A stretch of DNA of 64,000 nucleotides from Botryosphaeria dothidea. Lineage: Eukaryota > Ascomycota > Dothideomycetes > Botryosphaeriales > Botryosphaeriaceae. The notes under the pieces are model-generated. The model saw only the letters and a program-made list of their open reading frames with translations, searched no databases and was not told the DNA's origin. Of the stretch, positions 1,684 to 33,740 are shown piece after piece. Numbering within the stretch: position 1 is the stretch's first letter; every line of letters begins with the position of its first letter. The translations under genes were made by a program, and so were the position numbers. The stretch is taken from NCBI GenBank assembly GCA_011503125.2, contig WWBZ02000033.1, positions 3,968,001 to 4,032,000 of the forward strand, written 5' to 3'.

Positions 1684-2083
1684 AGTAAGGTTCTTAAGTA
1701 GAAGATACCCTTTAAGGTTACTTATAGTATTAAACTAAACGTAGCTTATATAAGAGTCTACGAATATAAGGCCTACGCCCTTAATAAAAATATCCCGCGT
1801 AGTAATAAGCTCTAAGAACGAGCTCTTATTAGTTATCTTATTAGTTACGACTCTACTAATATCTACTAAATATAGTATCTACTAGAGAACTATATTATTC
1901 GCTTAAGAGACGTTAGTTTTAACGAGTTATTAAAATACTTACTAGATAAGTAAGAGTAGTATTAAGAAATCTAGAATATAGAAGAGGAGCCTTAGAAGGT
2001 TATTCCTCGTATTCGTTTAAGCTCTAAAAATCTTATTACGTTAGATTTATTATCTAGTAAGAGTAAGAAGATAACTTATAAGT
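1684..2083 (+). pseudogene. Ty1/copia pol fragment, part 1 (post-integrase linker)
   Basis: Conceptual + strand reading gives the copia segment just after the integrase core, with motifs resembling YKAYALNKNIPRS, RALISYLISYDSTNIY and RLRDVSFNELL. All stops are RIP-type TAG/TAA. The left end abuts the gypsy LTR, so the gypsy element probably inserted into this copia element. The right end is interrupted at 2084-2097 by two LINE insertions; the copia-like reading frame appears to resume at 8146. No functional product is possible. Confidence 0.7.
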
Positions 2084-2097
2084 AAACTACTAATATA
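2084..2097. repeat. Target-site duplication, copy 1 (aaactactaatata)
   Basis: The 14-mer aaactactaatata occurs at 2084-2097, 7232-7245 and 8132-8145, exactly at the outer edges of the two stacked LINE copies A and B. Three copies are what two successive insertions into one site leave behind. The length matches the 15-bp duplications of LINE C and of the SINE, so the same endonuclease type is plausible. Confidence 0.85.
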
Positions 2098-2335
2098 GAT
2101 AGATAGATAAATTCATTTCTTCCCGATATAGCTCCCTTACGGGTCCATGCGGGGCTGGCTATCTATAGTTATTTTACACGAGGGGGAAAACCTTTTCGCC
2201 TGGCAAAAACCCCTCCTCTCTCTCTGGGCATGCTATCCTATACTAGTTCTTGTTTTTCCTTCTTACCAGTAGCGGCTGCTATGGCAGCCCTACATTCACC
2301 TACTAGACCTATCCCTTCAGTCCTTGTCCTCGTAG

Positions 2336-5300
2336 TTATCCGGATCCTGGTGGTCCTGGTGGTCCTCCTGGTTCCTCTTCCTGGTTGTCCTCCTGGATTA
2401 GTTCCCTTGCCAGGCTGAATTGCTTGAGCAGCCCTAGGCGTAAGAACCAGTCTATTGCTGCTTTGATTCCCTTCTTCGTTGAGAGGAGGGAATAGTAGTC
2501 CGTAGTCCCTGCCCTTTGGAGCATCTGTGCCCTGCCCTGTTGGAAGTGGGGGCAGAAGAGGAGGATGTGCTTTGGGGTTTGTCTATGCCAGCCGCATGGA
2601 CAGGCAGGGCTAGGGTGTCCTGGCACCTTGCGCCTAGAGAGGAAGTCCTCTAGTCCAATATGCTCAGTACGCAGTAGAGTGGCGAGTGTGCTCTGTGGCT
2701 TAGACAGTTCGCTGTGAATTTGTCGAATCTTTGGGTTCCACTGTGTGCTTTGGGCTACTGGCTTATCTTGCCTTCCTTGGCTGGTAAACTTTGTCCATCT
2801 CTTCTTCCACTTATTCCTATATGCTATGCGTAGTCTTGTTCGCTCCGGAAGACTCTGGTAGGTAGGGGGGCAGTAGTTAAGGAGGGCTGTTGCTCTTTCT
2901 CTAAGCAGAGTTCTTCTGGCTGGGCCGGCTGTGCCTCTGGTGCCTAGTGTAGCCCGGGCTATCTCTTTAATGCTCTGGCAAGTGTCCTCTACCACCATTG
3001 CCACTAGGCCATCCCTAGATCTAATAGTCTGGGCCAGCGCCAGTTCGTCCAGGTAGAGTGAGAGTGGGGAAATCCCCGTCTCGTGCTCTAAAGTTTGTGT
3101 GCTGGTTGACTTGTATGCCCCTGAGATGGTGCGTAGGCACTGGTTTTGGATCTTCTGCAGTGGCTGGGTGGCTGTCTTTCTCCACCCTGGGGTTCCCTCT
3201 GGGACGTGCCATACCCCACAGCCGTAGGTCATGACTGGTCTCACCACAGCCATATAGATATGGCGGGCTTTAGTAAATGAAGCTCCCCAGGTGGATGCTG
3301 CGAGTCTAGAGAGAGATATGCACTATTTGATTGCCTTGGCTCCTGTTTCCCTAATGTGGGGTCCCCATCTAAGCTTGTTGTCTACGTGGACTCCTAGAAT
3401 CTTGATTGTAGGCTCTGGGCATCCAGCAAATCCAGGGATACGGATCTCTGCTGCCATATTAAATCTTCTTGGTTTTCTTGTAAAATGAATGAGGTGATAC
3501 TTGTCAGGCGAGAAAGCTGACCCGTGGGTAGCTGCCCAGCGCTCGCAAATTTGATGTACGCCCTCTAGTGTCCTACAGTTTTGTTCTGTAGATCTACTAA
3601 AGGTTAGAATATTAGTATCATCGACGAATCCAAGGGGGAAGGTATTGCCCCTGCGTAGCTGTGTAAGTAGGTTAGAGGCAAAGAATAGGTAGAGGATCGG
3701 AGATAGTGAGGATCCCTGGGGAATCCCGGTTGAGGTCTAGATTGGTGGACTGGTAAAGTCTCCGAAGGATAGCTGAGTGGTACGGTCCTGTAGAAAGGAT
3801 CGAGTGAATCTTTCTACCCATTCTGGGAGTTTTGCCATCCTCATATTGTAGAGAAGCCTTCTATGAGATACGTGGTCATATGCTCCCGAGATATCCAGGC
3901 TGAGGACTAAAGCCACCAGCCCTGGATCTTGTGCCCAGACAGTATGGATCTGTTCTGTGAGCAGGTCGAGAGCTGCTACTGCGGACCTGTTTCTCCTAGC
4001 TCCCATCTGTGTATTAGGGAGCAGGCCGTATGCTTCAGTAGCCTAGGAGATTCTATCTGCTATAATCCTCTCAAGTAGCTTCCCTAGCGTATTAAGTAGG
4101 GCAATCGGCCTAAATGATTTGGCTTTGGTATAGTTATCCCTCTGTGGTTTCCTTAGGACTACGGTAATGGAGCTTTTGAACTGCCTAGGGTGGTATGCAA
4201 GTGCGAGGTATCCCTGGAAGAGCCTAGTGAGTGGTCCGCTTAGTGTCTGAGCGCACTGCTTTAGGAACCTATTGATAATCTTATCTGGGCCTGGTGCCTT
4301 ATCTGGGGGGAGCTTCTTGATGGTATGGAGGACCTGCTCTTCAGTAAGGTCTTGAGGGATCTCCACTGGCTCTGGGTATATACACCCATCCAGATCTGAG
4401 AGGTCGGTGGCCCTAGGAGGGGGGAAGAACTGGTTGGTAAGGATTTCTGCCTTGGCCGGATTGTCGTAGCGCAGTTGTCCATCTGCTCCCTGGAGGGGTG
4501 GGAACTGAGGTGGGGCTGGAGGCTCTAGTGCCCTTGTTCTTGCCCACTTTGAGAGCTTCCAGAGTGCAGATGGGTCTGAGGTGATCTCAGCTACTGTTCT
4601 GCGCCATACTTTTATTCTATCCCTTCTGATCTGCCTCTTCTTGCTATTAGCAATAGTTTGGTATACCACCCAGTCCTCCTCCCTCCCTGTGGCTGTCCAT
4701 TTCCTTCTAGCTGCTCTCGCCTGGTGCACTAGGTCCGAACACTCCTTTGTCCATTGTATGGAGGCCCAGGGCGAGGGTCTCGCCACTGGGATGGTTTCCT
4801 GGATTGTTCTTTGGATGACCTCCTGGAGTAGTTCTGTAAAGTAGTCTAGGTCTGCTTTCGTATTAAGAGGGGCTGCTCTAAGGTATTCGAGCTTTGTTTG
4901 GAGCACCTGATTGGTTCTATTCCAGTCTGCTTTTTTCCACTGGGGCCTTGGAGGACGTGGTTCTGTAGGGGTAGGGGAGATATCAAGCATGGTGAGGATA
5001 GGTAGGTGGTCTGAGGAGGATTCGAGCTCCTAACTAACTCTACAGCTAAGGATCCTCTTCTCTAGCCACCGTGTGGTAAAGATAAGGTCTAGGGTACTCT
5101 CGCTACTACCCTCTCTCCTAGTAATAGTACCTCTTGGAAGGGCTAGGTTAAGGCTAGCTGTCGTAGCTATTTTAATAAGGTCGTCTGCAAGAGTATGGTG
5201 TGTAGGGGAGGTAATGCCTCCCCAGGTAGGATGGTGAAGGTTAAAGTCCCCTAGTAGGACATGCTCCCCTGGTTTTCTAAGGGCTTCTGGGAGAAGCGCT

Positions 5301-5671
5301 AAGGTTTCTAGAGCCGTACTAGTGTGGGAGGCTGGTGGGGGGTTATAGCAGTTATGGATGTAGATTGTATGTGTCCTAGTAATGAGGGATAGTGTGATGA
5401 GATCTGGTGAATGGACTATTGCTTGCCAGGAGTCGGGGCTAATGGCCTTGCTTATAAAGAAGCAGGTTCTTGCCACTCCCTCCTGGGGAAAAACTGTGTG
5501 GTAGGCAGGGTGTCTTGCTGTTGTCTTGACCCTCGGGTTCCTCCAAGGTTCCTGGATGGCCAGGATATGGTGGATCTTTGGGTCCACTTCCTTAAAGAGC
5601 GGGAGCATTACCCTATCCTTACTCTTATGGACGTTATACTGTACGATGGAGAGAGAGCCTATGTCTAACAT
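2336..5671 (-). pseudogene. LINE A ORF2, endonuclease and reverse transcriptase
   Basis: A 1,112-codon frame is broken by four TAG codons (near 5030, 4043, 3737 and 3323) and no frameshift. The N-terminus is an APE-type endonuclease: VQYNVHKSKD near the start, AIQEPWRN, LLGDFNLHHPTWGG and STLDLIF. The central part is a LINE reverse transcriptase, with LRKPQRD...SFRPIALLNTLGKLLE, DISGAYDHV, TGIPQGSSLSPILY and the catalytic FVDD box near 3620. The C-terminus ends in a Cys/His cluster of the form CPCGWHRQTPKHILLFC. I find no RNase H signature (no TDGS-like motif) between RT and that cluster, although Tad-clade elements usually carry one. Each stop is explained by CAG or TGG turning into TAG. Confidence 0.88.
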
Positions 5672-7224
5672 TGACTTCCTTCCATCTCTAGGTCCGGCTG
5701 CGAGGGGGCTAGTGGTGTGGGCTGTGAGGAGGGAGTTCCCGCGGGCTCCTCTAAGGCGTGTTGTGAGCTGTTAAGTCCAGTGAACCTCATTTGGTTAGGA
5801 GGCGGGGGGCGGCTTAAGTCTCTTGGCCTGCCTGGTCCCCTCTTGACCGGCTCCTCCTCCCTGATCCTCTTCCTTGGTCCGACCGTCAGCCAGTTAGTTT
5901 GGGGCTGTGTCTTGGTTATCAGGGGTCCTTCCCGGTGCCTTTCTGGTGCTGCTAGGCGGGCCTGGGCGGCCTTAGCATGGCAGGCTCTGCGTGTTGGGCA
6001 GACGTTGCTCCAGGCTGTGTGCCTTTGGGAGCAGTTTGCGCACTGCGTGCTTTCCTTAGGGTAGTCCCTAGTATTATGTGCCTTGCCGCACTGTCCACAC
6101 TTTTCCTCCTTTTTACAGTGGTTGGTAATATGACCGTAGGCCTGGCACTTAAAACACTGGGTTACTATGAAGGCTGCATTATAGTACTACGCTATATAGA
6201 TAGCAAAGTTAATAACAAGCCCCTTATCAATAATCTGGTTAGCGGTTTCGGGGTTTGTAGTACTGAGGATGATGGCTAAGTGAGTTTTCCCCTCTGGGAG
6301 CTTCCTCTTTAGCCAGGCCAGCTTGCTGATACGTAGTCCTGGGTGTAGAGATAGGTTCTGCTCCTGGATGGTTTGGATGGCTTGGGGGTCTGTGGTATCG
6401 ATTCCTTCTCGAGGGACGTTGTGTACTAGCACTGAGTATAGCTGCTGGTTAGGCCTGACTTCTTTTCCCAGTCCTGTAGTCCATTCCTGGTCCTGGAGAA
6501 GGGCTGTTCTGGTTGCTTCATCCGGTATAAAGATCCTAACGTCTCCACTGGGGAGCTTCTTGGCAGCAAGTACTTTCTTGCACGCCCAGCTTTTTCCTGC
6601 CTGGATCTTTCTGATGATTGCCTCATTTGAGAGCTTGGCTATTTCTTATCTGTTTGCTATCTCTAGGAAGTAGAGGGTAAGTTCAGTGGTGGCTGGGGGG
6701 GTAGGGGGCTTCGGGGCTGCTTGGGCTGCAATTTATGCCCAGCTACGAGTATTGGGTGTGGGTGTAGAGGTAGCCTGGATACGGTTGACTATCTTTTGGA
6801 CCTGTTGGACCTCTTTGAGGATGTCCTTAAGGCCTGGCTCCTTGGTGGCTGCCTCCTAGCAGATAGTAATATGATCCTGGAAGATTGTCTTGGCAATGTC
6901 GAGAAAATTTTTCACCTGGCTGGAGAGGACTAAAGGGAGGCTAGCGGATATTTGTAGGGCTTGGAGGAGGGTGTCTGCTGTTTTTGAGGCTCTCTCAACG
7001 TATTCTACGCTATACTAGGTGCTCTGCGGTTTCTTGGGGGTGTATTAGGGCTGGGTAGGGGTAGTCACTGGGGGAGGCTGTTCGCCTCTTCCTGTGTCCT
7101 CTACATCAACCACTTCGCGGCTGCAGTTGTCTTGAGTACTGTTTTGGGACTCGCGAAGCCTAGGATAGTCCCTAGGGCCCTCTCCCGGCGCCGTAGCTTG
7201 GGGTCGATTTTTTGGTGTGGTCAT
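5665..7224 (-). pseudogene. LINE A ORF1, gag-like nucleic-acid-binding protein
   Basis: A 520-codon frame starts at ATG 7224, seven bases from the element end, and stops at TAG 5665-5667. Near its C-terminus (about 6150-6010) are two or more zinc knuckles. The first is a perfect CX2CX4HX4C (CFKCQAYGHITNHC), followed by CGQCGKAHNTRDY and a further C-rich segment. Such proteins coat LINE RNA. About six nonsense codons interrupt it, all TAG or TAA where CAG, CAA or TGG would restore sense; no frameshift was seen. The stop overlaps the ORF2 start in the heptamer ATGTTAG (5665-5671). That arrangement would suit termination-reinitiation on one mRNA, but this is inference. Confidence 0.8.
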
Positions 7225-7231
7225 GTTTTTT

Positions 7232-7245
7232 AAACTACTAATATA
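7232..7245. repeat. Target-site duplication, copy 2 (aaactactaatata)
   Basis: The middle copy of the 14-mer lies between the 5' end of LINE A and the 3' tail of LINE B. It shows that the two LINEs entered at the same phosphodiester position on separate occasions. Confidence 0.85.
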
Positions 7246-8131
7246 AATAGATAAATTTATTTCTTCTCGATATAGCTCCCTTACGGGTCTATACGGGGCT
7301 AGCTATCTATAGTTATTTTATATAAGGGGGAAAATCTTTTCGCCTAGTAAAAACCCCTCCTCTCTCTCTAGGCATACTATCCTATACTAGTTCTTATTTT
7401 TTCTTCTTATTAGTAGCGGCTGCTATAGTAGCCTTATATTTACTAACTAGATCTATCTCTTTAGTCCTTATTCTCGTAGTTATCTAGGTTCTAGTAGTCC
7501 TAGTAGTCCTAGTAGTTCTCCTAGTTTCTCTTTCTAGTTATTCTTCTAGATTAGTTCTCTTACTAGGCTAAATTACTTAAGTAGCCCTAGGCGTAAGAAC
7601 TAGTCTATTACTACTTTAATTCTCTTCTTCGTTAAGAGAAGGAAATAGTAGTCCGTAGTCCCTACTCTTTAGAGTATCTATATCCTATTCTATTAGAAGT
7701 AGAAGTAGAAGAGAAGAATATACTTTAGGGTTTATCTATACTAGCCGTATAGATAGATAGGGCTAGAGTATTCTAGCACCTTACGCCTTAAAAGGAAGTC
7801 CTCTAGTCTAATATACTCTATACGTAGTAGAGTAGCGAGTATACTCTATAGCTTAGATAGTTCGCTATAGATTTATCTAACTTTCGGGTTCTACTATATA
7901 CTTTAAACTACTAGCTTATCTTACCTTTCTTAGCTAGTAAACTTTATCTATCTCTTCTTCTACTTATTTCTATATACTATACGTAGTCTCGTTCGCTCCG
8001 GAAGACTCTAGTAGGTAGAGGGGTAGTAGTTAAGAAGGGCTGTTGCCCTTTCTCTAAGTAGAGTTCTTCTAGCTAGGCCGGCTATGCCTCCGGCGCCTAG
8101 TATAGCCCGGGCTATCTCTTTAATACTCTAA
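7246..8131 (-). mobile_element. LINE copy B, 5'-truncated, heavily RIPed
   Basis: This is colinear with the 3' 0.9 kb of LINE A (3' tail, 3' UTR, ORF2 C-terminus) but with nearly all CA/TG converted to TA. It ends abruptly at 8131, followed by the third copy of the 14-bp duplication at 8132-8145. A 5'-truncated LINE with an intact tail and duplication is the normal outcome of incomplete target-primed reverse transcription. Being strongly RIPed while A is not, it is older than A. Confidence 0.85.
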
Positions 8132-8145
8132 AAACTACTAATATA
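8132..8145. repeat. Target-site duplication, copy 3 (aaactactaatata)
   Basis: The outer right copy of the 14-mer. The copia-like reading frame continues immediately after it. Confidence 0.85.
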
Positions 8146-8507
8146 GAAGAATAATCTACTTCGTTATTAAATAAATAATAATAATAAGATATACTATCTA
8201 ATAAGCTAGATAAGTAATAAGCTTAACTACGTATACTATCGCCTTCTACTAGAAACGATAATATACTATAACTACTAGGCGATAACGAGCTACCGTTATT
8301 ATCTACTCTTAGAGACTCGTCTTTCTTAAAGAGTAAGAAAAAGAAGTAATAATAAGAGAGACGTCTCGGTTATCTTCTTTCTATTTAATATAATATTAAA
8401 TCTAACCTAGGAGTAGTAAAGGATAATCGTATACTTTTTATAGCTAATATTAACGCGGACTCTAACCTAAATCTAATTATTAAGAGTCTAAGAAATTAAA
8501 GAAGAGC
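8146..8507 (+). pseudogene. Ty1/copia fragment, part 2
   Basis: With the LINE A/B block and two duplication copies removed, the + strand frame of part 1 continues here without a shift, again with only TAG/TAA stops. The reading is a low-complexity, charged linker of the kind found between copia integrase and reverse transcriptase. I cannot place it on the family with certainty. LINE C interrupts it at 8508-8522. Confidence 0.5.
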
Positions 8508-8522
8508 TATATATATTATAAA
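8508..8522. repeat. Target-site duplication of LINE C, left copy
   Basis: The 15-mer tatatatattataaa at 8508-8522 recurs exactly at 10903-10917, directly after the tail of LINE C. Confidence 0.85.
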
Positions 8523-10902
8523 ATAACTATATTACGACAACTAGTCTAAGGTAGAAATCCTTACTAACTAGTTCTTTCTACCTTCTAGGGCTACCGACCT
8601 CTTAGATCTAGATAGGTATATATACCTAGTACTAGTAGAGATTCCCTAAGACCTTACTAAAGAGTAGATTCTCTATACTATTAAGAAGCTTTTCCTAGAT
8701 AAGGTACTAGGCCTAGATAAGATTACTAATAGATTTCTAAAGTAATACGCTAAGATACTAAGGGGACCTCTTACTAGGCTCTTCTAGAGATACCTTATAC
8801 TTAGATACTATTTTAAGTAGTTTAAAAGCTCTATTACCGTAGTTCTTAGGAAACTATAGAGGGACGACTATACTAAAGCTAAGTTATTTAGGCCGATTAC
8901 TTTACTTAATACGCTAGAAAAGCTACTTAAGAGAATTATAGTAGATAGAATCTCCTAGGCTACTAAAGTATACGGCCTACTTTCTAATATATAGATAGGA
9001 GCTAGAAGAAATAGATCTATAGTAGTAGCTCTTAACCTACTTATAGAATAGATCTATACTATCTAGGTATAAGACCTAGAGCTAGTAGCTTTAGTCCTTA
9101 GCCTAGATATCTTAGGAGTATATAATTACGTATTTTATAGAAGGCTTCTCTATAATATAAGAATAGTAAAACTCCTAGAATAGGTAGAAAGATTTACCCG
9201 ATTCTTTCTATAGGACCGTACTACTTAGCTATCCTTCGGAGACTTTACTAGTCTATTAATCTAGACCTTAACCGGGATTCCCTAGAAATCCTTACTATCG
9301 CTAATACTCTATCTATTCTTTACTTCTAATCTACTTATATAGCTACGTAGGAGCAATATCTTCCCCCTTAGATTCGTCGATAATACTAATATCCTAACCT
9401 TTAGTAGATCTATAGAATAGAACTATAGGATACTAGAGGAAGTATATTAAATTTATAAGTACTAGGCAGCTATCTACGGGTTAGCTTTCTCGCCCGATAA
9501 GTATTACCTTATTTATTTTATAAGGAAACTAAGGAGATTTAATATAGTAGCAGGGATCCGTATTCCTAGATTTACTAAATATCTAGAGCCTATAATTAAG
9601 ATTCTAGGAGTCTACGTAGATAATAAGCTTAGATAGAGACTCTATATTAGAAAAATAGAAGCTAAGGTAATTAAATAGTATATATCTCTTTCTAGACTCG
9701 CGGCGTCTATCTAGGGAGCCTTATTTATTAAAGCCCGTTATATCTATACGGCCGTAATAAGGCTAGTTCTTACCTACGGCTATAGGATATAGTATATCCT
9801 AGAGAAAATTCTAGGGTAGAGAAAAATAACTATCTAGCTACTAAAGAAGATCTAAAACTAGTACCTACGTACTATCTTAGGGGCGTATAAGTTAACTAGT
9901 ATATAAACCTTAGAGTATAAGATAGGGATTCCCCTACTCTTACTATACCTAGACGAACTAGTACTAGCCTAGGCTATTAGAGCTAAAAATAGCCTAGTCG
10001 CGATAGTAGTAGAGGAAACTTACTAGAGTATTAAATAGATAACTCGGGCTACTCTAAGTACTAAAGGCGCTACTAGCTCTACTAAAAGAACCCTACTTAG
10101 GAAAAAGATAAACTTACTCCTTAACTACTACTTCTCTACCTACTAGAGTCTTCTAGAGCGAACGAAGCTACGTATAGTATATAGGAATAAGTAGAAGAAG
10201 AGATAGATAAAGTCTACTAGCTAGAAAAGATAAGATAAGCTAGTAGCCTAAAGTATATAGTAAAACCTAAAAATTAGATAAATCTATAGCGAACTATCTA
10301 AGCTATAGAGTATACTCGCTATTCTACTACGTATAGAGTATATTAGACTAGAGGACTTTCTCTTAAGGCGTAAGATACTAGGATACTCTAATCCTACCTA
10401 TCTATACGGCTAGTATAGATAAACTCTAAAGTATATTCTCCTCTTCTACCTCTACTTCTAATAGAGTAGAATATAGATACTTTAAAGGATAGAAACTACG
10501 GACTACTACTCCCTTCTCTTAATAAAGAAGGAGATTAAAGTAGTAATAGGCTAGTTCCTACGCCTAGGGCTACTTAGTTAGTTTAGTCTTACTAGAAAAC
10601 TAATCTAGAAGAATAACTAAGAAGAGGAACTAGAAGGACTACCGGGAATACTAGAACCCGGATAACTACGAGAATAAGAACTAAAGAGGTAGGGCTAGTA
10701 GGCGAATATAGAGCTACTATAGTAGCCGCTACCGGTAAGAAGAAAAAATAGAACTAGTAGGAATAAATAGGCCTAGATAGAAAGAAGGGGTTTTTACTAG
10801 GCGATAAGATTTTCCCCCTCGAGTAAAATAACTATAGATAGCTAGCCCCGTATAGACCCGTAAGGGAGCTATATCGGGAAGAAATAAATTTATCTATCTA
10901 TC
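8523..10902 (+). mobile_element. LINE copy C, 5'-truncated, heavily RIPed, opposite orientation
   Basis: This + strand copy of the same LINE begins inside ORF2, upstream of the reverse transcriptase core, and runs to the (TATC)n tail at about 10889-10902. The RT is recognisable by conceptual reading, including the FVDD box near 9375. Essentially every CA/TG is now TA, so ORF2 is riddled with TAG/TAA. It is bounded by an exact 15-bp duplication (8508-8522 and 10903-10917). It is dead and can move only if supplied with enzymes in trans. Confidence 0.88.
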
Positions 10903-10917
10903 TATATATATTATAAA
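10903..10917. repeat. Target-site duplication of LINE C, right copy
   Basis: This is the second copy of tatatatattataaa. About 45 bp of the interrupted host sequence (10918-10962) follow before the next LINE tail. Confidence 0.85.
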
Positions 10918-10963
10918 GATTATTAGTAACGCTTATTATAACTAGACCTTTCTCGCCGTAAGT

Positions 10964-11156
10964 ATATATAGATAAATTTATTTCTTCTCGATATAGCTTC
11001 CTTACGGGTCTATACGAAGCTAGCTATTTATAGTTATTTTATATAAGAAAGAAAATCTTTTCGCCTAGTAAAAACCCCTTTTCTCTCTCTAGATATACTA
11101 TTTTATATTAGTTTTTATTTTTTCTTCTTACTAGTAGTAGCTACTATAGTAGCTCT
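10964..11156 (-). mobile_element. LINE copy D, 3' end only, heavily RIPed
   Basis: About 190 bp match the extreme 3' end of LINE A (tail and 3' UTR, - strand) with RIP substitutions. The match stops near 11156, where sequence from the opposite, 5' end of the same LINE begins on the other strand. See the inverted segment at 11157-11340. Confidence 0.75.
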
Positions 11157-11340
11157 AGAAAAAATATAACTATACTAAAAAATCGACTCTAAGCTACGGC
11201 GCTAGAAGAGGATTCTAGAGACTCTTCTAGACTTCGCGAGTTCTAAAATAATACTTAAGATAACTATAGCCGTAAAGTAGTTAATATAGAGAATATAAAA
11301 AGAGGCGAATAGCCTTCCCTAGTAACTACCTCTATCTAGC
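11157..11340 (+). mobile_element. LINE 5' end in inverted orientation
   Basis: These 184 bp match the first 183 bp of LINE A (- strand of 7231-7049), from the A-rich start through the beginning of ORF1, but on the + strand and RIPed. They sit head to head with the 3' end of copy D. Either it belongs to D as an inversion with a very large internal deletion, or it is the stub of a separate insertion whose remainder is gone. The sequence beyond copy E (16491 on) does not continue it. Confidence 0.7.
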
Positions 11341-11349
11341 TCTAATATA

Positions 11350-14300
11350 GATAGATAGATAAATTTATTTCTTCCCGATATAGCTCCCTTACGGGTTTAT
11401 ACGGGGCTAGCTATCTATAGTTATTTTACACGAGGGGGAAAACCTTTTCGCCTAGTAAAAACCCCTCCTCTCTCTCTAGGCATGCTATCCTATACTAGTT
11501 CTTATTTTTTCTTCTTACTAGTAGCGGCTGCTATAGCAGCCCTATATTTACCTACTAGACCTATTTCTTTAGTTCTTATTCTCGTAGTTATCCGGGTTCT
11601 AGTAGTCCTAGTAGTTCTAGTTATCCTCCTAGTTCCTCTTCCTAGTTATCTTTCTATATTAGTTCTCTTACTAGGCTAAATTACTTAAGTAGCCCTAGAC
11701 GTAAGAACTAGTCTATTACTACTTTAATCTTCTTCTTTATTAAGAGGAGAGAGTAGTAGTCCGTAGTCCCTACCCTTTAGAGTATCTATACCCTATCCTA
11801 TTAGAAGTAGGGGTAGAAGAAAAGAATATATTTTAGGGTTTATCTATACTAGCCGTATAGATAGGTAGGACTAAGGTACTCTAGTACCTTACGCCTTAAG
11901 AGGAAGTCCTCTAGTCTAATATACTCTATACGTAGTAGAGTAGCGAGTGTACTCTATAGCTTAGATAGTTCGCTATAGATTTATCTAATTTTTAGGTTCT
12001 ACTATATACTTTAGGCTACTAGCTTATCTTATCTTCCCTAGCTAGTAGACTTTATCTATCTCTTCTTCTACTTATTCCTATATACTATACGTAGCTTCGT
12101 TCGCTCCGGGAGACTCTAGTAGGTAGAGGGGTAGTAGTTAAGAAGTAAGTTTGCCTTTTTTCTAAGTAGGGTTCTTCTAGTAGGGCTAGTAGCGCCTCTA
12201 GTACTTAAAGTAGCCCGAGCTATCTATTTAATACTCTAGTAAGTTTCCTCTACTACTATCGCGACTAGGCTATCTCTAGCTCTAATAGCCTAGGCTAGTA
12301 CTAGTTCGTCTAGGTATAGTAAGAGTAGGGGAATCCCTATCTTATACTCTAAGATTTATATACTAGTTAACTTATACGCCCCTAAGATAGTGCGTAGGCA
12401 CTAGTTTTAGATCTTCTTTAGTAGCTAGATAGTTATTTTTCTCTACCCTAGGATTCTCTCTAGAGTATACTATACTCTATAGCCGTAGGTAAGAACTAGC
12501 CTTACTACGGCCGTATAGATATAACGGGCTTTAGTAAATAAGGCTCCCTAGGTAGACGCCGCGAGTTTAGAGAGAGATATATACTATTTAATTGCCTTAG
12601 CTCCTATTTCTCTAATATAGGATCCCTATCTAAGCTTATTATCTACGTAGACTCCTAGAATCTTAATTATAGGCTCTAGGCATCTAGTAAATCTAGGGAT
12701 ACGGATCCCTACTACTATATTAAATCTCCTTAGTTTCCTTATAAAATAAATAAGGTAATACTTATCGGGCGAGAAAGCTAACCCGTAGGTAGCTACCTAG
12801 TACTCGTAAATTTAATATACTTCCTCTAGTATCCTATAGTTCTATTCTATAGATCTACTAAAGGTTAGAATATTAGTATTATCGACGAATCTAAGGGGGA
12901 AGATATTATCCCTACGTAGCTATATAAGTAGATTAGAAGTAAAGAATAGGTAGAGTATCGGCGATAGTAAGGATTCCTAGGGAATCCCGGTTAAGGTCTA
13001 GATTAGTAGACTAGTAAAGTCTCCGAAGGATAGCTAAGTAGTACGGTCCTATAGAAAGAATCGGGTGAATCTTTCTACCTATTCTAGAAGTTTTACTATC
13101 CTTATATTATAGAGAAGCCTTCTATAAGATACGTAGTTATATACTCCCGAGATATCTAGGCTAAGGACTAAAGCTACTAGCCCTAGGTCTTATACCTAGA
13201 TAGTATAGATCTATTCTATAAGTAGGTTAAGAGCTACTACTACGGATCTATTTCTCCTAGCTCCTATCTATATATTAGGGAGTAGGCCGTATACTTTAGT
13301 AGCCTAGAAGATTCTATCTACTATAATCCTCTTAAGTAGCTTCCCTAGCGTATTAAGTAAAGTAATCGGCTTAAATAACTTAGCTTTAGTATAGTCGTCT
13401 CTCTATAGTTTTCTAAGAACTACGGTAATAGAGCTTTTAAACTACCTAGAGTAGTATCTAAGTACGAGGTATCTCTAGAAGAGTCTAGTAAGGGGTCCCC
13501 TTAGTATCTTAGCGTATTACTTTAGAAATCTATTAGTAATCTTATCTAGGCCTAGTACCTTATCTAGGGAAAGCTTCTTAATAATATAGAGAACTTACTC
13601 TTTAGTAAGGTCTTAGGGAATCTCTACTAGCACTAGGTATATATACCTATCTAGATCTAAGAGGTTAGTAGCCCTAAGAGGTAGAAAGAACTAGTTAGTA
13701 AGAATTTCTACCTTAGACTAGTTATCGTAATATAGTTATTTATCTACTCTCTAAAGGGGTAGAAACTAAGATAGGACTAGAGGTTCTAGTACTCTTATTC
13801 TTATCTACTTTAAGAGCTTCTAGAGTATAGATAGGTCCGAAGTAATCTTAGCTACTATTCTACGCTATACTTTTATTCTATCTCTTCTAATCTACCTCTT
13901 CTTACTATTAGTAATAGTTTAGTATACTATCTAGTCCTCCTCCCTCCCTATAGCCGTCTACTTCCTTCTAGCTACTCTAGCCTAGTATACTAGGTCCGAA
14001 TACTCCTTTATCTATTATATAGAGGCCTAGAGCGAGGGTCTCGCTACTAGAATAGTCTCTTAGATTATTCTTTAGATAGCCTTTTAGAGTAGTATAGTAA
14101 AGTAATCTAGGTCTACTTTAGTATTAAGAGGGGCTGCTTTAAGATATTCGAGCTTTAATTAGAGTATATTATTAGTTCTCTTCTAGTCTACTTTCTTCTA
14201 CTAGAGCCTTAGAGGGCGTAGTTCTACGGAGGTAGGAGAAAAATTAAGTATAGTAAGGATAGGTAGGTGGTTAGAGGATAATTCGAGCTTCTAGCTAACT

Positions 14301-16490
14301 CTATAGCTAAGAATTCTCTTCTCTAGCTACCGTAATATAAAGATAAGATCTAAAGTACTCTCGCTACTACTATCTCGTCTAGTAATAGTACCCCTTAGAA
14401 GGGCTAGGTTAAGATTAGCTACGGTAGCTATCTTAATTAGGTTATTCGCTAGAGTATAGTATATTAGGAAGGTTATATCTTCCTAGATAGGATAGTAGAG
14501 GTTAAAGTCCCCTAGGAGAATATACTCTCCTAGTTTTCTAAGAACTTCCGGTAGAAGAGATAGGATTTCTAGCGCTATATTAGTATAAGAGGCTAGCGGG
14601 GGATTATAGTAGTTATAGATATAGATTATATATATCCTAGTAATAAGGAAAAGTATAATAAGATCTAGTAAATAGACTATTACTTACTAGGAGTCGGGGC
14701 TAATAGCCTTACTTATAAAGAAGTAGGTTCTTACTACTCCCTTCTAGGGAAAAACTATATAGTAGATAGAGTATCTTACTATTATCTTAACCCTCGGGTT
14801 CCTCTAAGGTTTCTAGATAGCTAGGATATAGTAGATCTTTAGGTCTACTTCCTTAAAGAGCGGAAGTATTATCCTATCCTTACTCTTATAGACGTTATAC
14901 TATATAATAGAGAGAGAGCCTATATCTAATATTAACTTCCTTCTATCTCTAGGTCCGGCTACGAGGGGGCTAGTAGTATAGGCTATAAGGAGGGAGTTCC
15001 CGCGGGCTCCTCTAAGGCGTATTATAAGCTATTAAGTCCGGTAAACCTTATTTAGTTAGAAGGCGGGGGGCGGCTTAAGTCTCTTAGCCTACCTAGTCTC
15101 CTCTTAACCGGCTTCTCCTCCCTAATCCTCTTCTTTAGTCTAACGGTTAACTAGTTAGTTTAAGACTATATTTTAGTTATTAGGGGTCCTTTCCGGTACC
15201 TTTCTAGTACTACTAGGCGGGCCTAGGCGGCCTTAGTATAGTAGGCTCTACGTGCTAGGTAGGAGTTGCTCTAGACTATATACCTTTAAGAGTAGTTTAC
15301 GTACTATATACTTTCCTTAGGGTAGTCCCTAGTATTATATACCTTACTATACTATCCGCACTTTTCCTCCTTTTTATAATAGTTAGTAATATAACCGTAG
15401 GCCTAGTACTTAAAATACTAGATTACTATAAAGGCTACGTTATAGTACTACGCTATATAGATAGTAAAGTTAATAATAAGCCCCTTATTAATAATCTAGT
15501 TAGCGGTTTTAAAATTTATAGTACTAAGGATAATAGCCGAGTAAGTTTTTCTCTCTAGGAGCTTCCTCTTTAGCTAGACTAGCTTACTAATACGTAGTTC
15601 TAGATATAGAGATAGATTCTACTCCTAGATAGTTTAGATAGCTTAGGGGTCTATAGTATCGATTCCTTCTCGAGGGACGTTATATACTAGTACTAAGTAT
15701 AGCTACTAGTTAGGCCTAACTTCTTTTCCTAGTCCTATAGTCTATTTCTAGTCCTAGAGAAGGGCTATTCTAGTTACTTTATTCGGTATAAAGATTCTAA
15801 CGTCTCTACTAGGGAGCTTCTTAGTAGTAAGTACTTTCTTACACGCCTAGCTTTTTCCTACCTAGATCTTTCTAATAATTACCTTATTTAAGAGCTTAGC
15901 TATTTCTTATCTATTTACTATCTCTAAAAAGTAGAGAATAAGTTTAGTAGTAGCTAGGGAGGTAGAGGGCTTCGGGGCTACTTAGGCTATAATTTATATC
16001 TAGCTACGAGTATTAGGTATAGGTATAGAGGTAGCCTAGATACGGTTAACTATCTTTTAGACCTATTAGATCTCTTTAAGAATATTCTTAAGGCCTAGCT
16101 TCTTAGTAGCTGCCTTCTAGTAGATAGTAATATAATTCTAGAAGATTATCTTAGTAATATCGAGAAAATTTTTTACCTAGCTAGAGAGGACTAAAGAAAG
16201 GCTAGCGGATATTTATAGGGCTTAGAGGAGGGTATCTACTATTTTTAAGGCTCTCTTAATATATTCTACGCTATACTAGATACTCTACGGTTTCTTAGGG
16301 ATATATTAGGGCTAGGTAGAGGTAGTTACTAGGGGAGGCTATTCGCCTCTTTCTATATCCTCTATATTAACTACTTCGCGGCTATAGTTATCTTAAGTAC
16401 TATTTTAGGACTCGCGAAGTCTAGAAGAGTCTCTAGGGCCCTCTCCCGGCGCCGTAGCTTAGAGTCGATTTTTTAGTATAGTTATATTTT
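11350..16490 (-). mobile_element. LINE copy E, full length, heavily RIPed
   Basis: This is colinear with LINE A over its whole length, from the tail (gatagatagataaatt, from 11350) to the 5' end (atagttatattttt, to 16490), about 5.14 kb. ORF1 zinc-knuckle and ORF2 endonuclease/RT segments are all present, but CA/TG are replaced by TA throughout, producing a dense series of TAG/TAA. It is the natural alignment partner for A: same length, same structure, opposite RIP state. I see no convincing target-site duplication around it, perhaps because RIP or rearrangement erased it. Confidence 0.87.
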
Positions 16491-18110
16491 TAGTAAAATA
16501 ACGTAGTTTTAAAGAAACGAGACGTATACTAATTACTAAGAGGTTTATAGACTCGCCGCCTATAGTAGGCGTTAGAGCTAAAACTATTAGAGTTAACGTT
16601 ATAGAGATTAATTAAGTAGATAATAACTATAACGATAACTTTAAAGAATATATATAATAAGTAGGGCGGCGCTTAGCCTATAAGCGTTTATTATCGATCT
16701 ACTAAATATAGCTTACTATTTAATAGAAGGATATTACTCTAATTATAGTTATAACTACGAAGAGACCTTTCTTAAGTTCCTAAAAGAGTCTATACTAAAA
16801 CTCTACTTTACGATCTTTTAGTAATATATTAAGTTTAGTATAGAGGCGCTAGTATTTCGCGGTATACTAACTAAAAGGCTTATTAGTCTACTTAAGCTTA
16901 TAGAGCTCTTAAAAAGCTATTTTACGACGATTAGAGTCGCTAAAGGCTTACTTTAGTAACTATAGAAGGTTCTTAAAGTCTTCTATAATTAATAAAGAAT
17001 CTCGTAGTAGAACGTTAATTAAGCCGTATTTCTTAACGTATTCTCGTACTTAAGCGCTTACTTTACCTTTAAGACGTAATATAATATATTATAGACGAGC
17101 TTAAGCTATAGAAAAGCGGTCTCTATTTACTATAAGCTTAATACGTACTACTATTCGCTAATTAAGATATTTCTTTTTTTCTTCTTTAAAAACCGGTACG
17201 TTAGAAAGCTTTTCGCTAAGCTTTATTCTTTATTATAAGCCCTAGTTCTAATACTAGCTCGTAATAAAGCTAGTCTCTAGCCTTACTAACGGTTATATAT
17301 AGCTAAATCCTCTAGTAGGTTACTACTATCTCTTATATACCTCTAATTATTCTTTTAGTATCTCTTATATTATACGTACGGTATTTAACTCGTTTATAAG
17401 AGTATTAATACTATTCTAGGCGGACTAAAGCTATATTTTAAGGCTTACTACGCGTTAGTACTATTCTCTTAACTAGTTAAAAAAGCGCTAGGCCTAATCG
17501 CTATCTATAGTAACGTAGTTAACGAGTATCTAGGCGTTAGTAATATTAATAAAGTTAAGGCTAAGCTAGTCGACGCCGAAGGTATTATAACTCTATTAGT
17601 AAATAGTTACTAGACTCTCGCTTTTAAGCGGTAGAACGCGTAACGAAGGTCTCGTAGATAACGAATCGTACGGATAATAGTATAGCTCTCTCTAGGCGTT
17701 ATCGCCTATAATATCTAGATATATTTCTAATATTATAATAGACGATAACGGTTACGGTTACGGTTACGGTTAGCTTTAGATACCTAGCGTAGCTCTAACT
17801 TTATAGCGAAATAATAAGACTCTACGCGAGGCTCGACGATAGTAATAGTAACGGTAACGAGACGTAAGCTATTCTAAAGCCTACTTCTAGCTATAAGTAA
17901 GATAGGCGGTATAATCTAATATAATAAGACTCGATACTATTATAGAGAGATCGTATAAAGTACGAGAGTCTACGTATAAGCGAGAGCTATAAAGTTATAA
18001 AGTACGTAACGTTACCGCGTATACGCGCGTCTACTACCTATACGTTATTACGTATACTATCTTAATACTACTTCTTCGTTTAGCCGTTATACTTAAAAAT
18101 AGTAGATACT
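16491..18110 (+). pseudogene. RIP-destroyed reading frame of unknown identity
   Basis: One + strand frame from about 16690 to 17760 or beyond has only TAG and TAA stops in positions that CAG, CAA or TGG would fill, plus well-spread charged and hydrophobic codons. That suggests a real former coding sequence of at least 330 codons rather than noise. Conceptual reading gives helix-rich segments such as ETFLKFLKESILKL and VNEYLGVSNINKVKAKLVDA. I recognise no RT, integrase, transposase or zinc-finger signature. It could be a gene of an unclassified mobile element or a duplicated host gene inactivated by RIP. It lies between LINE E and a LINE ORF1 fragment. Confidence 0.45.
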
Positions 18111-29372: not shown

Positions 29373-29510
29373 TGCGTCGGCCGGGAATCGAACCCGGGGC
29401 TCATCGAAACTGATGTTGAGCATCTTGAAGGATTCATCAGAGGGTATTCCTTGGGATGTATCAACAACTTTTCTTGGCAACGATGAATTTTACCACTAAA
29501 CCACCAACGC
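29373..29510 (-). tRNA. tRNA-Gly (anticodon GCC) with a 67-nt intron
   Basis: The - strand 5' half starts GCGTTGG at 29510, has the D-arm/A-box GGTTTAGTGGTAAAATT and runs to the anticodon stem CATCG and loop TTGCCA. The intron occupies 29474-29408. The 3' half resumes with T-CGATG, the T-arm CCCGG-GTTCGAT-TCCCGG (B box) and acceptor strand CCGACGC plus discriminator A at 29373. The exons total 71 nt, exactly tRNA-Gly size. The acceptor pairs with one G-U, and all other stems pair. The intron sits one base 3' of the anticodon, the canonical position, but at 67 nt it is long for a fungal tRNA intron. Confidence 0.92.
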
Positions 29511-31247
29511 GATGCTGCTCGTTAGAAAGAGCGTATAAAGTTTTCCGTTATCAAGGAGACTGTACGCGTTGGGAGCCAAGCGCGACGTTGGCCGTCGTGG
29601 CATAGCGATGTGTGGAAAGAGAAGCTTGCATCCGACGACAAGGATCATACCACTCAACTACCAGCACTTCGCGCTACTGCCTCTTCAAAAGCGGTATTGA
29701 GCTACCGATGTGGAGAGAGGCGTTGGTCACCGTTATGCCGCAAGAAACTGCCACTCCAAACCGTAATCTGGGTATGCAGGTATCGACGAATGTGTCTTGC
29801 TTCTACTTCAGCGCTGGCCTATCACCAGTGTGCCATTTGTTACACCAGTAGGTTAGTATGCAACCCCACATCTCGTCGTGCTTATCTTGCAGGCGGTATT
29901 TGGTAAAAAGTATCGAGCATCTGTGAGGTCGTTTTCAACAGTAAGTACATGAGTGAAGCGAAGCGCTAGGAGCCTAAATATGGGAGGTCAGTTAGGTCAT
30001 TCACATTCGCACTGTGTCTCCTGCTCCTGAGTTTCTATTGCACCAAATCCTGATAACAATCTGGAATTCAAAAGCAACATGCTCAAGCTTGTTCATTCCC
30101 GAGGTTTCTTCTCTTTCAAGTTAAAAGAACACCCCACGCTATCCCTCGGAGGCCTCATCAGATGCTGGTCCATCCAGTGTTCAGCTCGTGCCTCGGTTAA
30201 GCCGGACTTTCCAACCAATACATCCTATTCATCTACAGAGGCAAATGGCACGGTCCCCCTTTATCCATGTCCTTCATGCGGGGGCACGGATATCTCCTGC
30301 GTACGTTTATGCAACAGCCCTATCCTTTCGGCATGAGTTGGGATGGATGGAACCCCTTAGGCGGTCGGCACGCCTATTGCAGCACCAAACAGTCCTGGCT
30401 CGGGCACTTGAAGCCGACAGTCTTCACTGTCCATTCGCCTCCGGACGACTCCTTCATGTCACCATGTTCCATCCATTCTCGCTATCATAAAACGAGGGAA
30501 CCCACCGCAGAGCCTATTCCGGCCATTGTTGTCGGAAGATTTCAACGAAGCTATCCCCCGCCGCAGGTGGAAGGTGCTCAAGCATAAGCATTTACTGGCC
30601 AAGCGAAACCACAACGGCTTTTCCCGTATTCCTTTAAACACAATGGTTGTTGAGTCGAAACCGCATGGAAGCTCGAGCCTTTTTTTTCTTTTTACTCAAG
30701 GGATGACAAGTGGTCCCACGTCTCATTTTGCGACCTGTTACCAACGGCGGACTGATGCACGGCGTATGCTCGGTGTATGATGTCGGCAAAGTATCCGACT
30801 ATACGGTACAGTACGACCGACTGCTAGAGCACATTGCACAGGCTGGTGGCAAATGCCGGCGTACAATGTAACATAGAGTGAGTTTTCGGCTGAATTTGCT
30901 TCTCGGCACAGCGTTCCGAAGCGATGGTTGAGCTCACAAGGCCAATTTTCCACTTACCTAGGCATTTCTCCAAACGCAAACCAGTGATTGGGCCCAACCC
31001 TAGAAATTTGGCATATGAGCTCACATGAGATTTGAAGTAGTCGTACGGGCGTGGATGTTGTCAATTCTCCTGGACAGACATGCGGAAAACTTTGATTCCC
31101 CATGCGTCTTTGCGCTTGCTGCAGCAATACTTTTCGCATCGGCTTCGGAACAGTAAAGATTCGCGAATCGTCAGGCAAACGACTATCGTACCCCGAGCCA
31201 CGGACAATCGATCTGCAGTCAGAGACCGAATATTGAACGGACCAGTT
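29511..31247. other. Intergenic, no convincing gene
   Basis: Several 60-110 aa frames overlap on both strands (for example 30079-30587). None shows a domain, signal peptide or plausible introns. The right edge is the 15-bp target duplication of the SINE (31248-31262). Confidence 0.45.
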
Positions 31248-31262
31248 CTATGTATTTCGATT
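31248..31262. repeat. Target-site duplication of the SINE, left copy
   Basis: The 15-mer ctatgtatttcgatt at 31248-31262 recurs exactly at 31875-31889, after the SINE tail. Up to four bases of the right copy could equally be tail (ctat), so the duplication is at least 11 bp. Confidence 0.9.
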
Positions 31263-31269
31263 GGCGGGG

Positions 31270-31341
31270 TAGTGTATTGGTAGGGTGCACTTCCACGGTA
31301 ACCTGGCCTTTCTGGGGTGGCACAGGTTCTAAGTTCGAATC
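31270..31341 (+). promoter_or_regulatory. Internal Pol III promoter of the SINE (A and B boxes)
   Basis: A box TAGTGTATTGG fits TRGYNNANNGG at every position. B box GTTCGAATC fits GTTCRANNC. Start-to-start spacing is 63 nt, inside the usual range for tRNA-type promoters. Confidence 0.8.
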
Positions 31342-31360
31342 TTAGACCGCTTACCTACTC

Positions 31361-31530
31361 GTGGCATGTGCGTCCCACGTTAAAAGCACACGTACCCGCG
31401 TTCTCCCTAGCGGTGATAAGGGGGAAAATCCACAGGTGGTTAGGGTGGGCCACAAGTGGCATGTACGTCCCACTATAAAAGCATACGTACCCGCGTTCTC
31501 TCTGGCGGTAACAAGGGGGAGAAGGGCCAG
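31361..31530 (+). repeat. Tandem duplication inside the SINE body
   Basis: Unit 1 starts GTGGCATGTGCGTCCCACG at 31361 and unit 2 starts GTGGCATGTACGTCCCACT at 31456, a 95-bp period. The units share the motifs ACGTACCCGCGTTCTC and AAGGGGGA and differ at scattered positions, so the duplication is not new. Confidence 0.85.
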
Positions 31531-31874
31531 CTAGGCGCTTCTGAAAATAAATTTTAAGAGCGCTTTACCAGCGCTTATAAATAGGTAAGCCGGGACTTCT
31601 TACGGCTTAGTCTTAAGATTTACAGTCACCTCTCTCTATAGTTCCTCCCTCTTAGCTACTCTTCCTACTTTAGATACCGCTACCGGTATATAGAAAAAAA
31701 CCATACTAAATAGAGTATCTACGGATACTACCATTATAGATAGGGAAGGTTTTTACCCGGGCTATCCCAAGAAAGTAGCCACGGTTTCCCCTTCCATATA
31801 TACCCTTACAGATAGCCACAGCTGCATGGACCCTTCGGGGAGCTAAATCAGCTTAATTGAATTTATCTATCTAT

Positions 31875-31889
31875 CTATGTATTTCGATT
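31875..31889. repeat. Target-site duplication of the SINE, right copy
   Basis: Second copy of ctatgtatttcgatt, directly after the (TATC)n tail. Confidence 0.9.
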
Positions 31890-33740
31890 CACATCCTACC
31901 ATAGCCCTGCCCCAAGGCGATTGTTCATTTGCAGGCTGAATCAAGCCAAGTTCTGTTGATTGATCGCCTCGCCTTAAGCCTAGAAGTGGTTATGCTGTCT
32001 CACTATAATCTCTTCTGGCCCACAAGCTGCGGCACCGGCTAACAGTAATTAGGGGGGCTTCAATCTGTAGCAGTGGCTATTCCACAATTGTAGGCGCTAC
32101 AATGGACAAAGCCCATTGCTCAAATTTGGGGTGCGAACTATCGAGTTTCGGGCACTGCCAAGCAGATCCTCACGCCCAGACCCTTCCACAACCCTCCAGC
32201 TGAGGTCCCGGCTCTACCTTTCAAAAAAGCTTGAGTGTCATTTCCGAACGCACACAGAAAGCAACCATGCTGATCGATACCGTCAGTTGCCGTCGCCGTT
32301 CGAGCTGATCATTGGTCGCCAGCGCGAAGTTTGCGGAGAGCCAACGCACGAGTGAATACGAGGTATTTCTTGCGGCAACAATTTGTCGGAAGTATTCCGT
32401 CTCAAGTCTCGAGTCGCGCGCATGGCCCCACGGAGATCAGTTCGGGCCATTCCATGGCGACGAGAAGGTTGGCTCCACCCGCCGAGCGAATGCGACCGCA
32501 AGAGGGGCCGAAGAGGCCATACAAATAAGCAGAGGCTGTTTATTAAACCGAGCTGGGGGCAAAAAATAGCCTCCAACAGCGCGCCGGTGCAGCTCAGGTC
32601 CAGGGTAATGATCTCATTGCCAACAAGTCGCCCTGAGAATCCCCGGGCGAAGCTTACTGAGAGAGGCACAGTGTGGCACAGAAAATCCCACACTAGCACG
32701 CCCCACACGTGACTGGAGCGTTTCAGGATCACGCGTCAGAGTCAGCTTAAGTGTCGCAGCGCAGGTACGGCGGTTACAAAAAACGCGGCTGCGTCGTCGT
32801 GCGAAAGGGCGGCAGTTGTGAAGCGGAGGTCAGCGTATTGTCAGCACTCTATTCACTGCGCTGGGTGGGTGGGCGGCGGGCACCATGGCCGCTGATCGCT
32901 TTGGGAGGGGGGAGGGCACGGCAGACGCCAGCGGCCTGCCCGATTCGAACGGCTCGGCGGGCGAGGGGTGGCTGTCAATGGAGCAAGGGGAGGCTAAAAT
33001 CAAGGTTAATCCTGTGTATTCTGGCAGTCAAAACAGGGCCGGGGCGCAGTCGCCAGAGCTGCTGTATGGCCGCGAGGGGGTGAAGGTGTGGCTCGCCCTC
33101 CCGGCAGCACGGCATTCGCGCCTGCAGGCTGCCAGCAGCATGCCACACGCGAGGTGTCAGCCCGCGCGGTGTGACCATCGCCGGCGCCGGCCCAGAGGCG
33201 GCGGCCGCACGCTCGCGCACTGTCCCTGGCCAGGGCGAGAGCGCCCGGGGCGCCCTCGTCGCGCGGGACCCTCTGGCGGCGGATGGGGCGTGATGGGGCC
33301 GTGGAGCGAGGGGAGAAGCAGCTCTGGCGGCGATGGCTGTGCAGCGCTGTAAATAATGATGGAGTGAGAGCAGCGCTGGCAGCACCGCAGAGCGCCCTCT
33401 AGAGCAGCCCGTTTCGGTAGCGGCGGCCGGCCGTGCCTGCAGTTTTTTATGTCATGCCTGAAACGGCTCTAGTCTGAAATCATGCGCTGCCCAGTGAGTG
33501 GACCAGGCGCTCCCCGAGTCTGCCGTCTTGACCACCGGATCTCTCCACTCACTGCGCGACCACATTCATCAACACCAACACCGCCCTCGCCCCCCATCAC
33601 GTACCCGCGCCTTCCCTGCACGCCGACTCCCAGCCCGCCGCCCGCGACTTCCACCCGGCTCACGATCCTCTCCCTACCGAATTCGACTCACCACGGCGCC
33701 CTCACGCCCCCGATAAGGAGGCACTCGCTTGCCGGGCGCA
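31890..33740. other. Intergenic, no convincing gene
   Basis: Unique DNA, GC-rich from about 32750. Frames such as 32283-32732 (-) and 32885-33352 (+) overlap antisense frames and show no family features. The last few hundred bases, rich in CCACC/CCGCC, are probably promoter and 5' UTR of the next gene. Confidence 0.45.

Follow-up and report, generated by a model that had tools for sequence, protein, structure and literature searches.

Few SINE/LINE pairs were found in the fungal literature consulted: two stand in a table of 2013, Mg-SINE with MGL/MGR583 and SINE2-1_BG with Tad1-24_BG (PMC3747384), and one, AfuSINE2-1a with I-1_AF, was proposed for Aspergillus fumigatus in 2016 (PMC5063351). 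The present element was compared by description with these families and with Foxy. Mg-SINE of Magnaporthe is of the tRNA type, with 472 bp and about 100 copies (PMC5063351), and has a LINE tail (PMC3747384), whereas the present SINE is distinguished from it by a TCTA tail and a two-unit internal repeat. SINE2-1_BG of Blumeria, a tRNA-type fungal SINE with the tail of a Tad1 LINE (PMC3747384), is labelled tRNA-Gly (PMC5063351) and differs in belonging to another fungus. AfuSINE2-1a is of the tRNA type and has a short repeat tail, and its 3' part (210-335) is similar to a resident LINE's 3' UTR, but its tail is made of ACT (PMC5063351). Foxy of Fusarium oxysporum is comparable as an active fungal SINE family of about 160 copies (PMC5063351).

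In the window, that is, the whole stretch of 64,000 nucleotides of Botryosphaeria dothidea DNA that was analysed, positions 31263-31873 very probably hold a recently inserted member of a fungal SINE family with many copies, moved by the reverse transcriptase (RT) of a resident LINE. Since fungal SINE/LINE pairs such as Mg-SINE/MGL are already known, this SINE constitutes a new family of a known kind. It is real and ordinary in kind; what is added here is its likely partner LINE, a fold shared by both, a common target motif and a mutation record. One genome displays the source copies and the partner together with the structure of the tail, the target motif and the mutation record and, because all of them can be read there, LINE RNA recognition in fungi and the escape of short elements from repeat-induced mutation become directly testable. 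No earlier description of the family was found in the literature by a text search with words of the sequence, which broken words would escape, and an entry in Repbase or Dfam is possible. For B. dothidea, 1,962 bp of Repbase-type SINE have been counted, with no family described in the accessible text of the source (PMC7325678), and the word SINE is absent from the accessible text of a genome paper on the Botryosphaeriaceae (PMC11051394). Of the proteins encoded in the window, one has a Botryosphaeriaceae record as its best named hit (85% over 52% of the query), and for a second the named hits, among 120 listed of 660, come from scattered Dothideomycetes and one lichen fungus.

Structure and copy number of the SINE family

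The window copy is composed of the following features.

31247..31262, + strand: left target-site duplication TCTATGTATTTCGATT, exact, 16 bp
31263..31873, + strand: long-form SINE copy of about 611 bp, carrying two internal units (family searches, copies and ends)
31263..31351, + strand: tRNA-like head with a cloverleaf-like fold (folding; tRNA models without match at cut-off)
31270..31280, + strand: A-box-like TAGTGTATTGG, one mismatch to TRGYNNARNGG
31333..31341, + strand: B-box core GTTCGAATC, fitting GWTCRANNC
31361..31428, + strand: internal repeat unit 1 (self-comparison)
31456..31523, + strand: internal repeat unit 2, 87% identical to unit 1, at 95-bp spacing
31807..31877, + strand: SINE 3' end common to the LINE, 79% over 72 bp
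31820..31853, + strand: 3' stem-loop formed by both SINE and LINE, with a UUCG loop in the window copy
31866..31877, + strand: (TCTA)3 tail
31874..31889, + strand: right target-site duplication TCTATGTATTTCGATT, its first letters overlapping the tail

Because the (TCTA)3 tail runs into the right duplication, the opening letters of which could equally belong to the tail, the last bases of the element are ambiguous. The first-pass annotation had described here a tRNA-derived SINE of about 612 bp that ends at 31874 between exact 15-bp duplications. The common 3' end and the exactness of the duplication were recovered; the duplication itself is 16 bp long and, when it is counted in full, the element closes at 31873 after about 611 bp. 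The claimed absence of coding capacity was borne out, the longest open reading frame lying fully inside being of 57 aa and the longest one overlapping the SINE, which enters from outside, of 67 aa. The same holds for the simple-repeat tail, (TCTA)n, whose length varies among copies, and for the setting in gene space, the flank GC of the window copy being 0.49.

The family was searched in its own genome (51.7 Mb, 78 contigs). With the whole element at least 46 matches were obtained, 40 of the 313 candidates having been scored. A 29-bp core pattern from the middle of the SINE occurred at 172 places with up to 3 mismatches, 100 of which were listed individually, and patterns from the 5' and 3' ends occurred at 38 and 76 places respectively at the same tolerance, while the reversed patterns used as controls gave 0 in every case. 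A further 112 candidate copies were merged, 60 of them (58 stretches) lying in the sample and 52 outside it. From 88 loci, 11 of which hold partial copies only, 80 start-end pairings were made and, once the chimeric L085 (693 bp) was dropped, 79 copies in 77 loci were retained. Family copies are spread over many contigs. Because a match had to begin at element position 1-3 for a copy to enter the set, the agreement at the 5' end is partly due to construction; the start falls at position 1 in 56 copies, at position 2 in 21 and at position 3 in 2, in agreement with the 5' end annotated at 31263. As to the first base, 56 copies have G, 22 have A and 1 has T.

Element lengths fall into two classes, 517-522 bp (21 copies) and 576-620 bp (58 copies), which differ mainly by one internal unit of about 95 bp: the window copy has two such units and the short form a single one. 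In the seven short forms inspected letter by letter, this unit corresponds to unit 1 on its 5' side and to unit 2 on its 3' side, and at least two switch points are seen among the short forms (L003, L062, L093 and L103 compared with L083). The simplest reading is that the short form arose by repeated loss of a unit, through recombination or template slippage; the reverse order is also conceivable. The 37 rows used for the comparison of units and lineages were hand-picked from the table of 79 copies.

The tRNA-like head and its putative promoter elements

In five of five copies folded, the first 90 nt adopt a cloverleaf-like fold, and the minimum-energy fold of the window head has a z of -2.08, with 7 of 200 shuffles folding as well. 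Polymerase III promoters are described by the consensus strings TRGYNNARNGG for the A box and GWTCRANNC for the B-box core. Both boxes had been annotated as fitting their consensus everywhere; both are present and stand in tRNA order, with one mismatch in the A box and two in the B box, whose 11-mer GGTTCGANTCC agrees at 9 of 11 positions. When the mismatched A-box position is relaxed, a search of both window strands for an A+B pair with a spacing of 25-65 bp gives a single hit, at the SINE; when that position is kept, such a pair is absent from both.

While the identification as a SINE stands, derivation from a tRNA is the weakest part of the first-pass reading, as the head is rejected by the search tools. 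ARAGORN reported no tRNA at the SINE in the window, nor in 40 loci, and the match of the Rfam tRNA model was confined to the T arm in a single copy, with 12.5 bits against a cut-off of 29, whereas for the window copy the model gave no match even at an E threshold of 5. A lax Rfam search of the element returned two unrelated families (E 1.6 and 4.9), which were set aside. Elsewhere in the window, a tRNA gene at 29373-29510 (- strand) matches the Rfam tRNA model at 48 bits and is unreported by ARAGORN; inspection by eye made it a tRNA-Gly(GCC) whose intron measures roughly 65 bp. This locus was tried as a source of the head, and its alignments do not stand out from shuffles: it agrees with L004 at 13 of 15 D-arm letters in the same register, a result equalled by 21 of 300 shuffles, and the score of its local alignment with the window copy was reached by 117 of 300 shuffles.

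A LINE-mobilised non-coding RNA element independent of Pol III, whose head is like a tRNA in appearance only and whose template is a Pol II transcript, is an unlikely alternative. It would agree with the rejection of the head by tRNA search tools, with the imperfect A box, with tRNA-locus alignments that shuffles match for L004 and the window copy, and with the internal runs of T4 and T5 at element positions 290 and 487-488, which could end a Pol III transcript early; speaking against it are the cloverleaf-like fold in every head folded, the ordered A- and B-like boxes found once in the window in relaxed form, and the fixed 5' end of full copies (from position 1 in 56/79), as an internal promoter would give. 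The preferred reading is that of a SINE whose head is tRNA-like, the case for derivation from a particular tRNA being weak.

Target sites, probable partner LINE and common 3' end

Exact adjoining duplications of at least 10 bp were found in 66 of the 79 copies as compared with 1.3% of 3,901 shuffled flank pairs, and of at least 13 bp in 63 copies as compared with 0.6%. Judged by their last 10 nt, 60 of the 66 duplications are distinct. By the test used, 10 of the 79 copies have no duplication, namely seven heavily mutated copies, L002 and the two facing copies in L003. Dispersed copies with the same ends and differing flanking duplications, which the first-pass annotation had proposed as the proof of its element, are indeed present. 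At L092 only the last ~45 bp of the SINE lie between two copies of TCTATATAAGCCACGTT (duplication read by eye), which is a 5'-truncated insertion as left by target-primed reverse transcription. The identification as a SINE is upheld by the number of copies and their common ends, by the target-site duplications and the simple-repeat tail, and by the LINE-like 3' end and the lack of coding capacity.

A small DNA transposon (MITE) or another cut-and-paste repeat would also be short, non-coding, flanked by duplications and present in many copies, but such an origin is highly improbable in view of the simple-repeat 3' tail, the duplications of 11-18 bp, the 5'-truncated L092 and the LINE-like 3' end, and no inverted repeats were found in 31230-31900. 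Segmental or tandem duplication in place of transposition, to which the few copies with shared flanks (e.g. L088 with L094, L097 with L098) might be ascribed, has hardly any probability for a family spread over many contigs with so many distinct duplications.

A LINE that the first-pass annotation had left unmentioned lies in the same window.

2083-2097 and 7231-7245: duplication TATATTAGTAGTTTA flanking the LINE
2096..7230, - strand: LINE copy, from the family likely to be the partner, with stop codons breaking its main frame
2096..2167, - strand: LINE 3' end, resembling that of the SINE
3323..4042, - strand: LINE reverse transcriptase, two adjoining open pieces of one frame with a stop between them, both RVT_1
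5030..5770, - strand: LINE endonuclease-like open piece, Exo_endo_phos_2, E 2e-17

The RT pieces match RVT_1 at E 3e-12 and 1e-7. The last 72 bp of the LINE agree with the SINE end at 57 of 72 positions (79%) with one gap, TCTA tail included, at E 3e-14 when the two sequences are compared, and self-comparison of the window also picks out this pair. In the genome the LINE 3' end has at least 40 close matches at 94-100%, with 40 of 559 candidates scored. About 1 kb before an identical LINE 3' end, at C12:4169836, an RT match lies in a stop-free open frame of 961 aa, indicating that intact-looking copies of this LINE exist. Judged by sequence, the LINE at 2096-7230 most likely represents the family that moves the SINE. 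LINEs of the Tad1 clade combine an AP-type endonuclease with an RT, and the clade is assigned by phylogeny; that the partner LINE belongs to it is our guess. LINE/Tad1 elements are reported as common in Botryosphaeriaceae (PMC11051394).

Two other LINE-related sequences were met in the searches. L013 (2179-3624, - strand) represents another LINE family, with a similarity of about 72% across 1,454 bp, and its 3' end also resembles the SINE end. L032-L049 comprise 18 RT matches at an identical score (138.4 bits), 13 of them in an open frame of 1,653 aa; these matches are from a recently amplified element distinct from the partner LINE.

The motif (C/T)TATA starts 12-18 bp upstream in 59 of the 79 SINE copies, and at exactly -15 in 46 of them, whereas a control stretch placed 30 bp farther away has it in 8 of 79; it was scored in the left flank, beyond the influence of the tail. 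Among 12 distinct LINE 5' flanks, located with a motif in the sampled sequence, (C/T)TATA is found 12-18 bp upstream in 8, as compared with 2 in the control stretch, and 4 are without it in that place. SINE and LINE both tend to insert preferentially at (C/T)TATA. At L083, the right duplication of a short-form SINE runs directly into the 5' end of a LINE, at the target site CTATATATACAGACA, which shows one target site used by a SINE and a LINE. Two further pairs of SINE copies were noted by eye: L076 and L116, both of the short form, have the same flanking sequence and start 3 bp apart, and L086 (long) and L104 (short) have the same flanking sequence at an identical position. Such pairs could reflect either more than one insertion at a single nick site, the target itself being repeated, or an exchange that took place later.

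The 3' ends of four SINE and six LINE copies were aligned, and RNAalifold gave one stem-loop for the ten. Pairing is seen in 92.7% of its 110 cells, versus 84.1% (sd 1.8) with the 3' letters shuffled and 23-55% with the partner slid. Between SINE and LINE, 2 of the 11 stem pairs are changed on both sides and still pair, from C-G to G-C and from C-G to U-A, in all four SINE rows. The covariation score is above all 500 shuffles and the number of double-change cells, 8 versus 3.2 in shuffles, was reached by none of 500; the count of double-change pairs (2) was reached by 428 and that of pair types by 498 of the 500. Since the four SINE rows share the double-change letters, these may represent two changes in one lineage. 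The paired changes lend support to a common SINE/LINE fold but do not settle it. The tetraloops differ, the SINE having UUCG or UCCG and the LINE GUAA or GAAA, and the 3' ends folded as single sequences are no more stable than shuffles (z 0.19 for the SINE, -0.57 for the LINE). The SINE has both the 3' end and the common stem-loop that characterize a stringent-type LINE-dependent SINE, for which dependence on the RT is itself predicted.

The following course of events, ordered after known target-primed reverse transcription, would account for these observations. The SINE RNA probably comes from the internal tRNA-like promoter. Since its final ~72 nt are similar to the resident LINE's 3' end, the LINE RT would take it as template, as the shared end, tail, stem-loop and target motif all suggest. 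The LINE endonuclease would nick the bottom strand at (C/T)TATA, the motif observed, and the UCUA repeats of the RNA would anneal to the nicked end, from which DNA would be copied. The target duplications observed, mostly of 13-18 bp, would result.

Age and mutation record of the copies

No substitution separates L004, L005, L008, L009 and L011, which carry five different duplications, implying that the family moved recently. At least three source lineages were distinguished: the L004 group; the window copy with L002, L062, L093 and L103; and L022 with L023 and L102. Every substitution of the window copy relative to the majority is common to other copies, so that it has no private substitution.

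C-to-T change mostly at CpA is the mark of repeat-induced point mutation (RIP). As a reference for mutation, the majority of the 40 GC-richest of the 79 copies was used, a GC-rich reference that favours C-to-T over T-to-C and does not favour the CpA context. C-to-T change, counted on both strands, was found at 2,048 of 3,830 CpA sites (53%), compared with 8.2% of CpC, 3.6% of CpG and 1.5% of CpT, and all other substitutions across the 79 copies amount to 65. The CpA load is two-sided, with 31 copies having 0-11 changed sites and 48 having 20-52, and 29 of these 48 heavily mutated copies are above 95% changed CpA sites. Element GC follows flank GC (r = 0.84, n = 79), the latter being 0.38-0.54 in the light class and 0.27-0.42 in the heavy class.

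Copies in AT-rich, repeat-like surroundings thus carry heavy C-to-T mutation of the RIP type, a pattern that is observed directly and of which RIP would be the cause, while copies in GC-normal surroundings, the window copy included, are nearly unmutated. The relation between GC and mutation is equally compatible with regional mutation, with copies of different age, or with short elements escaping in gene space. RIP has a length limit, and about 0.6 kb is near it. As a tentative and rather doubtful proposal, the fold and not the sequence could be the ticket to the LINE RT, and the SINE of about 0.6 kb could largely escape RIP in gene space, near the length limit; by the same proposal, the five substitution-free copies would survive amid mutation-saturated ones because the short SINE escapes RIP. 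In its accessible text, the genome paper on M. phaseolina reports no RIP, unlike the genome studied here (PMC3477038).

A nest of copies of the partner LINE family, in both orientations, occupies positions 2083-16491 of the window. Its parts at 11342-16491, 8521-10907 and 7231-8130 are strongly AT-shifted, and the adjoining copy at 2096-7230 is less mutated.
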